DNA of 38,469 bases, taken from NCBI GenBank assembly GCA_018334055.1, contig JAGXSS010000098.1, forward strand, positions 1 through 38,469. The letters run 5' to 3'. A program made the position numbers and the translations under genes. The notes below the pieces were generated by a model. That model was not told the DNA's origin. It ran no database searches and was given only the letters and a program-made list of their open reading frames with translations. Shown here one piece after another: positions 17,205-22,794 of this stretch. This DNA is from Peptococcaceae bacterium (GTDB lineage: Bacteria; Bacillota; UBA994). The first letter of the stretch is position 1. Every line of letters begins with the position of its first letter.

Positions 17205-20200
17205 GTCGCCCCCCGCGCGGGGGCGTGGATTGAAACGGGCACGTCATAACCGCAATCTATAAGCAAGCTGGTCGCCCCCCGCGCGGGGGCGTGGATTGAA
17301 ACACTACCTCCTAATTTTTGATGTATGTGCGTGACTCGTCGCCCCCCGCGCGGGGGCGTGGATTGAAACTTGTAAACTTCGACATTGCCGCAGACTACGG
17401 CATGTCGCCCCCCGCGCGGGGGCGTGGATTGAAACATGAGTCCGATTATTGGATTCATAACAGCGGGGGGGTCGCCCCCCGCGCGGGGGCGTGGATTGAA
17501 ACACCCCCTTCTGCTAAAGCATCTCTAAGATTTTTTGTCGCCCCCCGCGCGGGGGCGTGGATTGAAACCCCCGAGAACGGTGCAGACTACGGAAACTATA
17601 GAGGTCGCCCCCCGCGCGGGGGCGTGGATTGAAACTCCTTGTGCCCGGCGCCTTGTCGCGCCCGCGGCAGGTCGCCCCCCGCGCGGGGGCGTGGATTGAA
17701 ACTGAGCTCACGTCCACTGGCATGTTTGGTATAGAGTCGCCCCCCGCGCGGGGGCGTGGATTGAAACCACCAGCACGGCAGGCACAGCAGTTTGGCGCAA
17801 CAGTCGCCCCCCGCGCGGGGGCGTGGATTGAAACAGGTATACTCAAAAGAGAGTGGATTGCATGTCGGGTCGCCCCCCGCGCGGGGGCGTGGATTGAAAC
17901 CAGGAAACATAGTACCTCAACGAGCCTACCTTGAGAGTCGCCCCCCGCGCGGGGGCGTGGATTGAAACCCCTCGCATATCGGATACGCCAAAGAGCACCC
18001 CGGTCGCCCCCCGCGCGGGGGCGTGGATTGAAACCCGTTTTTACGCGCGACAATGAGCGCCAACTCCGTCGCCCCCCGCGCGGGGGCGTGGATTGAAACA
18101 GAGAAGAACCCCCTATAGTAGGGGGAGGTAATGGTCGCCCCCCGCGCGGGGGCGTGGATTGAAACATCTGGTCGTACATCCGCCTCTGGTCGGCGTCCAG
18201 TCGCCCCCCGCGCGGGGGCGTGGATTGAAACACAACAGCACGGTGCCGGCATTTCAAGGGCGGCAGGTCGCCCCCCGCGCGGGGGCGTGGATTGAAACTC
18301 CATCTGAAAACTGCAGGTGACAGCCCAACTCGTCGCCCCCCGCGCGGGGGCGTGGATTGAAACCCCTCGCATATCGGATACGCCAAAGAGCACCCCGTCG
18401 CCCCCCGCGCGGGGGCGTGGATTGAAACAGCAAGCTCCAGAGGTCATCTGGACGGTTGAGCACGTCGCCCCCCGCGCGGGGGCGTGGATTGAAACGGCTC
18501 AAGCGACTGATCGGATTGACGATTGTCTCGTCGCCCCCCGCGCGGGGGCGTGGATTGAAACCAGGGATTCGGGGATGTTGTCGCGGGCAGAGTCTGTCGC
18601 CCCCCGCGCGGGGGCGTGGATTGAAACTCGCGGGCAGAGTCTTCGGCGGCAAGGATGGATTGTCGCCCCCCGCGCGGGGGCGTGGATTGAAACTCGGCCT
18701 AATTTCTGCGATACACTCAAAAAGCCGGTCGCCCCCCGCGCGGGGGCGTGGATTGAAACTGCGATACACTCAAAAAGCCGCAGGTAGAACCGCGTCGCCC
18801 CCCGCGCGGGGGCGTGGATTGAAACCAGTAACGCCATGTTATTGTCGGCCACAGCGTTGGTCGCCCCCCGCGCGGGGGCGTGGATTGAAACGTCCGGGTA
18901 TGTGGCAAGCAGGAAGTCTCGGTAGTCGCCCCCCGCGCGGGGGCGTGGATTGAAACCCGTATCCCTGCGAGTGCGCGAGCTCCTGCGTGGCGTCGCCCCC
19001 CGCGCGGGGGCGTGGATTGAAACTAATCCGGTGGAAGAGATGCTGCTACGTAGCGCGTCGCCCCCCGCGCGGGGGCGTGGATTGAAACGGTCTGCTGCGC
19101 GGTCCGGCTTTTCACCCTGTGGGCGTCGCCCCCCGCGCGGGGGCGTGGATTGAAACGGTTAAGAGAGTTTGTAAAAAGTCAGGGGGGGGATGTCGCCCCC
19201 CGCGCGGGGGCGTGGATTGAAACGCGTCTGCGAAGAGCTTGAGGCAAAAAAAGTGTTGTCGCCCCCCGCGCGGGGGCGTGGATTGAAACGCTAAAGCGGG
19301 TGCAAGGGATCAGTGTAGGCAATGTCGCCCCCCGCGCGGGGGCGTGGATTGAAACTGTGGCTCGGCAGCAATGCAGGCAATTAGTGCTCAAGTCGCCCCC
19401 CGCGCGGGGGCGTGGATTGAAACAAGCCGTGGGACGTAACGAAAGAAACCATCCGTGAGTCGCCCCCCGCGCGGGGGCGTGGATTGAAACTCCCTACCCT
19501 GCATGAGCGTGATGTTAGTGCCGATGTCGCCCCCCGCGCGGGGGCGTGGATTGAAACCGGATGGTCGGCGCATCAAGATACGCACTCAAATGTCGCCCCC
19601 CGCGCGGGGGCGTGGATTGAAACAGCGGTGAGGATGGATTCGATTTGGGTGGCAAGTGTCGCCCCCCGCGCGGGGGCGTGGATTGAAACTTGAGCGGGCT
19701 AGTCCCCTTGGTCAACTATTTTCCGTCGCCCCCCGCGCGGGGGCGTGGATTGAAACCAGCGTCATCAACTACGAGGCACTCCGGCTGGAGAGTCGCCCCC
19801 CGCGCGGGGGCGTGGATTGAAACCAGCGTCATCAACTACGAGGCACTCCGGCTGGAGAGTCGCCCCCCGCGCGGGGGCGTGGATTGAAACCAGCGTCATC
19901 AACTACGAGGCACTCCGGCTGGAGAGTCGCCCCCCGCGCGGGGGCGTGGATTGAAACCAGCGTCATCAACTACGAGGCACTCCGGCTGGAGAGTCGCCCC
20001 CCGCGCGGGGGCGTGGATTGAAACTGCGTCGTCATAGACTCTAGCACCACCATAGACTGTCGCCCCCCGCGCGGGGGCGTGGATTGAAACGTGGGATAAA
20101 TTGGATTCGCACTGAACATAGCCAGTCGCCCCCCGCGCGGGGGCGTGGATTGAAACAGCGGCAAGTGCTTGGACGGCAGCGGAGAGGACGGGTCGCCCCC

Positions 20201-22794
20201 CGCGCGGGGGCGTGGATTGAAACACCGCGCACAATCTGGGCATGTAGCAGAACGCCCGGTCGCCCCCCGCGCGGGGGCGTGGATTGAAACGGCTCTAGCT
20301 GGTACCGACGCAGAGGTCGGCTGGTGTCGCCCCCCGCGCGGGGGCGTGGATTGAAACGCCTATATCTTGACGTCCACTAAGCGGGCACGAGTCGCCCCCC
20401 GCGCGGGGGCGTGGATTGAAACTGGACATTCTCATGCGACCACCGATGTCTTATGCGTCGCCCCCCGCGCGGGGGCGTGGATTGAAACTGGACGAGTACC
20501 ACTGCATCCCAGCATGTACCTCGTCGCCCCCCGCGCGGGGGCGTGGATTGAAACTAGGCAAGCATGGTGTTCTGTGCGGCCGTCCTGGTGTCGCCCCCCG
20601 CGCGGGGGCGTGGATTGAAACCATCCGCGGTGCGAATTTCGATTCCGGCTTTATGTCGCCCCCCGCGCGGGGGCGTGGATTGAAACTTGCAGGGCAAATT
20701 GACGATTGGCAGCACGTGGAGTCGCCCCCCGCGCGGGGGCGTGGATTGAAACAAGAAATGCAGTCCCGGCTACGCAAAGAGTGCATCGTCGCCCCCCGCG
20801 CGGGGGCGTGGATTGAAACAGTCCCCGGGGAACCCGGGGAGGAGAAGTACACTGTCGCCCCCCGCGCGGGGGCGTGGATTGAAACGAGTGGCAAGTGCCT
20901 GGATAGCAGCGGAGAGGGCGTCGCCCCCCGCGCGGGGGCGTGGATTGAAACGTGTCGTGTGGTGTGGATCATTACTCCATGCCGCGTCGCCCCCCGCGCG
21001 GGGGCGTGGATTGAAACGTGTCGTGTGGTGTGGATCATTACTCCATGCCGCGTCGCCCCCCGCGCGGGGGCGTGGATTGAAACAGATGCCGCACGATGTA
21101 CCTATACTCAGCGGTAGGTCGCCCCCCGCGCGGGGGCGTGGATTGAAACTGCAGGGGAAATTGACGATTGGCAGCACGTGGAAGTCGCCCCCCGCGCGGG
21201 GGCGTGGATTGAAACTGCCAACTATGCCCACCGCCATCGGCGCGGTTATGTCGCCCCCCGCGCGGGGGCGTGGATTGAAACCGGGTAGAGTACCACTGCA
21301 TCCCAGCATGTACCTGTCGCCCCCCGCGCGGGGGCGTGGATTGAAACGCATCCGTCTTGAAGATGCCGGCTACACTATCCAGTCGCCCCCCGCGCGGGGG
21401 CGTGGATTGAAACTGCCAACTATGCCCACCGCCATCGGCGCGGTTATGTCGCCCCCCGCGCGGGGGCGTGGATTGAAACATGTCAATGGTGAAGAGTTTT
21501 ACGAAAGCTGTACGTCGCCCCCCGCGCGGGGGCGTGGATTGAAACAGATGGTGATGGCTTATGGGTATACAGCCCAAGCGTCGCCCCCCGCGCGGGGGCG
21601 TGGATTGAAACAGGATATACGCAATTAGCGTAGATGCCGCGGTCAGTCGCCCCCCGCGCGGGGGCGTGGATTGAAACACCTAGGGGGGAGCGTATCCCCC
21701 CTAGGTGGGGTGTCGCCCCCCGCGCGGGGGCGTGGATTGAAACTGGACAGGTGAGCGTGGCGCCACGTCCTGTGCTGTCGCCCCCCGCGCGGGGGCGTGG
21801 ATTGAAACACTTAAATCCATACACACTTCAATTACCTGTGCGGTCGCCCCCCGCGCGGGGGCGTGGATTGAAACGATCATGACATTATAGACATCCACCT
21901 CAGGGCTCTGTCGCCCCCCGCGCGGGGGCGTGGATTGAAACGCGGCTGGTGAGGGCCTTGGCTCCGGTCTGCGGAGTCGCCCCCCGCGCGGGGGCGTGGA
22001 TTGAAACACTCTGGCGCCCACTGCGGGGGACCATTCTCTTTGTCGCCCCCCGCGCGGGGGCGTGGATTGAAACCAGCGTTACGTCGAGTACTATGAGGGG
22101 CACTTTGGTCGCCCCCCGCGCGGGGGCGTGGATTGAAACCCGTTACGAATCGTGAAAAAATCTTGCCATGTTTGTCGCCCCCCGCGCGGGGGCGTGGATT
22201 GAAACGTTCGGGTCGTTGCAAGCCTCCGTCCAGTAGCTCGTCGCCCCCCGCGCGGGGGCGTGGATTGAAACGATTGTATCGGCGATTTGTGCATGGGGAG
22301 AGGCCTGTCGCCCCCCGCGCGGGGGCGTGGATTGAAACTCTTCTGGAGAAGGTAGACGAACTCGGGCAGTTAGTCGCCCCCCGCGCGGGGGCGTGGATTG
22401 AAACCGTCCCTCTGCACCGTGGTCATGCGCGGGAGAAGGTCGCCCCCCGCGCGGGGGCGTGGATTGAAACGCGGCTGGTGAGGGCCTTGGCTCCGGTCTG
22501 CGGAGTCGCCCCCCGCGCGGGGGCGTGGATTGAAACACTCTGGCGCCCACTGCGGGGGACCATTCTCTTTGTCGCCCCCCGCGCGGGGGCGTGGATTGAA
22601 ACGCCTTGCAGAACTGGCACCAATCGCCACACCGGAAGTCGCCCCCCGCGCGGGGGCGTGGATTGAAACTTCCATGACAGCGTAAGCTGCCCAAACGACG
22701 GCTGTCGCCCCCCGCGCGGGGGCGTGGATTGAAACGATATACGCCTCTTCGACGTAGCGGGCGTTCTGCGTCGCCCCCCGCGCGGGGGCGTGGA
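17205..22794 (+). CRISPR. Type I-C CRISPR array: 84 full repeats, one truncated repeat, 84 spacers
   Basis: Counted by hand, the 32-bp repeat starts GTCGCCCCCC and ends GATTGAAAC, with starts at 17205, 17271, 17338 and so on to 22704. A last copy at 22770 matches only its first 25 bases. Spacers are 33-36 bp, mostly 34. The repeat forms a stem CGCCCCC/GGGGGCG with a CGCGC loop; Cas5c cleavage at its 3' base would leave an 11-nt handle ending GAAAC. All full copies look identical. The leader is at the left, so spacer 1 is newest. Of the 84 spacers 76 are distinct: spacers 39-42 are one sequence, and 12/18, 57/58, 61/64, 72/80 and 73/81 are copies. Pairs 21/22 and 23/24 overlap in sequence; pairs 45/56, 50/62 and 53/60 are diverged relatives. 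The near-66-bp period keeps reading frames open on both strands, which creates spurious repetitive peptides. Confidence 0.98.

Follow-up and report, generated by a model that had tools for sequence, protein, structure and literature searches.

Spacer pairs with one-nucleotide offsets in a type I-C CRISPR array suggest repeated uptake from diverged alleles of the same viral sites

The window analyzed here, a stretch of 38,469 nucleotides (contig C98) within a 2.38-Mb draft genome of 109 contigs from a Peptococcaceae bacterium, contains a CRISPR array in which three pairs of spacers resemble each other without being identical. The question raised by this locus is how a single array came to hold two versions of the same site three times over, and what the differences between the two versions record. 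Re-parsing of the array upheld the spacer numbering and the coordinates given by an earlier sequence-only reading, as well as its observation that spacers 45/56, 50/62 and 53/60 are homologous but not identical (Table 1).

The array belongs to a type I-C system. Pfam matches give the gene order cas3-cas5c-cas8c(csd1)-cas7-cas4-cas1-cas2, which is that of type I-C, and the 32-nt repeat of the GTCGC...GCGTGGATTGAAAC type together with spacers of 33-36 nt is likewise as found in this type. According to Cas8c, the named relatives are Bacillota metagenome genomes, followed by Syntrophomonadaceae. The repeat is present in 84 exact copies (GTCGCCCCCCGCGCGGGGGCGTGGATTGAAAC) and one degenerate terminal copy at position 22770. 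Because this degenerate repeat and cas2 are located at opposite ends of the array, spacer 1 is the newest spacer. The cas1 gene is found in two frames, with a break around a C-run near 16290-16340, and a 99%-identical cas1 copy in a sister genome (L084) is in one frame. This break reflects an error in sequencing or else a defective adaptation gene; if cas1 is truly broken, growth of the array has ended. Strong palindromes (hairpin or terminator-like) are present in spacers 14 (18100-18133), 55 (20820-20853) and 68 (21678-21711), which is an unusual choice for spacers.

Table 1. Features of the type I-C locus, with positions given in the window.
Feature	Position	Strand	Basis or remark
Type I-C cas operon	9344..17037	+	Pfam matches
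cas3	9344-11575	+	Pfam Cas3
cas5c	11580-12305	+	Pfam Cas_Cas5d
cas8c/csd1	12302-14083	+	Pfam Cas_Csd1, E=9e-181
cas7	14095-15021	+	Pfam Cas7
cas4	15023-15682	+	Pfam Cas4
cas1	15702-about 16732	+	Pfam Cas1; broken frame
cas2	inside 16585-17037	+	Pfam Cas2
Leader side, between cas2 and first repeat (short leader)	17038..17204	+	Array layout
CRISPR array, 84 spacers of 33-36 nt, 32-nt repeat	17205..22801	+	Repeat/spacer parsing
Spacers 12 and 18 (first and last of stretch)	17969..18396	+	Unshifted re-acquisition control
Spacers 21 and 22, 15-nt overlap	18562..18661	+	Profile match to phage gene of family phrog_4068
Spacers 23 and 24, 21-nt overlap	18694..18793	+	Within spacer 23, the site of 24 follows a TTC
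Spacer 37	19624..19657	+	14/17 nt overlap with 22, read from sequences; weaker
Spacer 45, newer of 45/56, start 1 nt further in	20157..20191	+	Array parsing
Spacer 50, newer of 50/62, start 1 nt further in	20489..20522	+	Array parsing
Spacer 53, newer of 53/60, start 1 nt earlier	20687..20720	+	Array parsing
Spacer 56, older of 45/56	20886..20919	+	Array parsing
Spacer 60, older of 53/60	21150..21183	+	Array parsing
Spacer 62, older of 50/62	21282..21315	+	Array parsing
Spacer 82	22603..22637	+	Only spacer with clear phage matches

When the members of each pair were aligned over 33 columns, all three pairs showed a 5' offset of exactly 1 nt, in agreement with the sequence-only reading. The pair 53/60 shows a single mismatch, at position 8 of spacer 60. 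In 50/62 the three mismatches lie in columns 1, 4, and 5, and the remaining 28 nt are identical, whereas 45/56 has five mismatches (columns 3, 13, 18, 19, and 32), scattered over the alignment. The direction of the shift varies, with two of the newer spacers (45 and 50) starting further in and one (53) starting earlier. With shuffled spacers, chance overlap matches amounted to 0.1 per array, with a maximum of one in 20 shuffles, and to 0 across the whole survey described below. Spacers 12 and 18, which served as an unshifted control, have a common target, an equal 5' end and 3' ends that lie 1 nt apart.

The meaning of a 1-nt shift depends on the PAM. The canonical PAM of type I-C systems is TTC (PMC8482600), and cleavage by type I-C Cas4 is precise at the PAM (PMC6519985). 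The target of spacer 82 is a phage gene, annotated as exonuclease in two of the matched phages, and the identity between spacer and site is 97% for a gut phage and 87% for a contig from the related genome G007. TTC precedes the protospacer in three of the four homologues (the G007 contig and two gut phages) and TTT in the fourth. Overlapping spacers also allow the flank of the later site to be read: TTC is found there in 23/24 and in 7/18 of G004, and, by reading of the sequences, in 71/73 of G004, and other triplets are found in 21/22 (TTG), G355 8/16 (GGC) and G029 48/50 (TAC). Taken together, these small numbers (three of four homologous sites and three of the six same-strand overlaps checked) identify a 5'-TTC PAM for this family. 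Two TTC triplets cannot start 1 nt apart in one sequence. A 1-nt pair therefore implies either that TTC is differently placed in the two alleles or that one of the two spacers was excised in the wrong register, a point absent from the sequence-only reading, and the shift most likely means that the PAM moved between alleles.

Other spacers indicate which targets the array has drawn on. The reverse strand of spacers 21 and 22 encodes SILAAEDSARDNIPESL, which matches the small phage protein family phrog_4068 (E=0.0016 to 0.0038 for the joined-spacer peptide against the profile; 21.5 bits for the 21+22 core alone). Viral members of this family reach E-values down to 4e-24 and are present in 13 IMG/VR contigs, and no prophage copy of the gene close enough to read alleles was found in relatives. 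Judged from its overlap with spacer 22, spacer 37 probably targets the same gene, and 45/56 may extend it. Adding the residues of spacer 37 or of 45/56 to the match gained only about 3 bits each, and the gain from 45/56 was equalled by 21 of 200 shuffles. A 17-nt match to spacer 37 is also present in the gene targeted by spacer 82 (G007 contig). The earlier reading did not note that spacers 21, 22 and probably 37 fall in tiled fashion on one small phage gene. All are on one strand, and the newer a spacer, the further it is displaced to one side. A 12-nt overlap on opposite strands between spacer 46 (20224-20258) and the oldest spacer, 84 (22736-22769), may indicate that the same target family spans much of the history of the array. 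The overlaps in 21/22, 23/24 and 46/84 show that the array drew repeatedly on a narrow target pool, which makes the repeated sampling of one site less surprising.

Protospacers of 50/62 and 53/60 were not found in IMG/VR, phage, plasmid or related-genome searches, and BLAST of the single spacers of these pairs against phages and plasmids gave no match. Peptide-degenerate DNA patterns for 50/62 and 53/60, designed for several coding frames, had no match in IMG/VR; one pattern of this set had no match in GTDB genomes, and for one such pattern the array itself was the sole match in 61 related genomes. A search with the whole array as one contiguous query likewise returned no target for these two pairs. 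A tblastx match of 53/60 to contig L067 was rejected, being antisense to the local gene and little above reversed-sequence controls, and matches of spacer 45 to Gordonia tail genes (E=0.4) were attributed to chance.

To place the three pairs in a wider context, same-site pairs were collected from 1,484 spacers of 46 type I-C genomes or records, consisting of related genomes, other members of the phylum and a few named genomes. Array L153 of G029 contains many same-site re-acquisitions that differ only at the 3' end (spacers 3, 4, 5, 32, 37, 47, and 48), the re-acquired spacers being 34-37 nt long with a fixed 5' end and a variable 3' end. Among 11 independent diverged same-site pairs in the survey, the offset was 0 in four, 1 nt in five (three in this window, one in the archaeal array L091 and one in G112) and 3 nt in two, and an offset of 2 nt did not occur. 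The sequence-identical same-site pairs, some of which are array duplications, were all at offset 0. The contrast in shifted pairs was 0/30 identical versus 7/11 diverged (Fisher p=1.5e-5). Six of the identical pairs have differing 3' ends and are the most plausible true re-acquisitions; all six were unshifted (0/6 versus 7/11, Fisher p=0.035). Without the window's own pairs the contrast was not significant (0/5 versus 4/8, p=0.10). These tests, like those on mismatch position below, were framed once the data had been seen, and the numbers are small. The shift thus accompanies divergence of the target rather than uptake itself. For both 3-nt pairs, CTC instead of TTC stands in the earlier-starting allele at the expected PAM position of its partner, so that the PAM triplets differ between the alleles, if TTC was used.

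The survey also bears on the kind of variant that was sampled. In pairs with up to three mismatches, 10 of the 15 mismatches fall in the PAM-proximal first eight columns (binomial p=0.0006; p=0.006 in a rotation test that preserves clustering), and no such bias is present in pairs with more than three mismatches (4/21). Among the latter, most mismatches in G327 and G025 recur at intervals of three bases, the pattern that silent codon changes would give. From these patterns we read the pairs with up to three mismatches as putative escape or very recent variants and those with more as putative related phage lineages, which would place 50/62 and 53/60 in the former class and 45/56 in the latter. 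With its five scattered differences, 45/56 agrees better with a related phage lineage than with escape by point mutation, and its alleles are probably from different related phages rather than from a parent and its escape mutant. Each pair consists of two spacers of different age against one site in one array, which is the pattern expected of re-immunisation. The earlier proposal of re-immunisation against escape variants or related phages is borne out with regard to the separate uptakes and agrees with the PAM-proximal differences in 50/62 and 53/60, and has to be narrowed for 45/56, where point escape fits less well.

We consider it reasonably probable that ordinary type I-C immunity sampled a single viral site on two occasions, each time from a different allele of one phage family, and that the PAM had moved between these alleles. 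Cas4-Cas1-Cas2 cuts exactly beside the 5'-TTC PAM and, because of this exact cut, the 5' end of a spacer marks the place of TTC in the infecting genome. Between the older and the newer infection, TTC would have moved one base to the left or right, and a few nearby bases would have changed too. The older crRNA would then have faced a PAM that is out of register, in addition to seed mismatches in 50/62. We infer that the older spacer cut poorly yet could have primed uptake, and that the new spacer was taken at the relocated PAM.

The same offsets could have been produced by slippage on near-identical sequence with a single TTC, in which one spacer of each pair was cut one base off. Most spacers obtained in type I-F priming that are without a PAM at the consensus position have a PAM shifted by +/-1 nt (PMC4117759), and the extra first base is C in 50/62 and in the archaeal L091 pair, two of the five pairs with a 1-nt shift, as a slip retaining the C of the PAM would give, which is evidence against a moved PAM. 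However, this base is not C in the other three pairs, the cut of type I-C Cas4 is precise (PMC6519985), and slippage should also have affected the sequence-identical re-acquisitions, none of the 30 being shifted; we therefore regard slippage as rather unlikely. A single phage or plasmid with two diverged copies of a site, both of which were sampled, would also yield such pairs, and for 50/62 and 53/60 the searches returned no target genome. Such paralogous targets are nevertheless improbable, as three unrelated duplicated sites would be required. In addition, the recovered viral phrog_4068 stretches each have one RDNIPES match, which bears on 45/56 only, if at all.

Two further explanations concern the array itself and not its targets. 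Spacers of co-existing strains might have been joined into one array during assembly, considering that the genome is a draft of 109 contigs, that the 32-nt repeats are identical and that in the sister genomes G001 and G002 the arrays are interrupted by contig ends. The members of each pair have different neighbours, however, and even in a joined array the shift would still need separate acquisitions, only the time order being lost; an artefact of this kind seems quite improbable. Duplicated spacers that mutated later have in their favour that the array does contain duplications: spacer 39 occurs as four tandem copies (39-42, 19757-19992), and 57/58, 61/64 and the two-spacer block 72-73 = 80-81 are further letter-identical duplicates. 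Yet every duplicate and all 84 full repeats are identical to the letter, and for the register to shift by 1 nt, a copy would have to lose sequence at one end and gain some at the other, three times over. Since true duplicates in the same array are letter-identical, the pairs are independent acquisitions, as the sequence-only reading had concluded, and an origin from mutated copies, the least probable explanation, is in practice excluded.

Re-immunisation at one site is already known, and the present pairs are a further case. In the type I-C array of Legionella pneumophila Toronto-2005, two spacer pairs lie on overlapping LME-1 sites, with the older spacer having a PAM or seed mismatch and the newer one being perfect, which was read as escape followed by primed re-uptake (PMC5071653, 2016). 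Both loci have overlapping same-target spacer pairs within one type I-C array. In Legionella the target element is known, whereas the pairs described here are known from comparison within the array alone, and three pairs with an exact 1-nt shift are unlike the Legionella description. A likeness exists also to Sulfolobus islandicus and SIRV, where leader-proximal spacers match the target better (PMC6452263); this is a population-level study of known viruses and other CRISPR types, in which we found no mention of shifted same-site pairs. During primed adaptation of types I-F and I-E, PAM slippage gives spacer offsets of +/-1 nt (PMC4117759), but acts on one sequence, whereas the shift here is confined to pairs whose sequences also differ. 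In a limited search of the literature, a link between offset and divergence was not found.

Successive spacers against the same site form a chronological record of the responses of host and virus to one another. We tentatively suggest that in type I-C arrays the same-site offset preserves the relocation of the target's PAM in readable form, with diverged alleles often resampled 1 or 3 nt off and unchanged ones always in register. If the offset marks a moved PAM, this record can be read from the bacterial array without the virus, as is the situation for most uncultivated lineages. The gain is an additional case and a simple test that is applicable to large array collections, and if the suggestion is true, arrays alone could show the evolution of viral PAMs without viral genomes.
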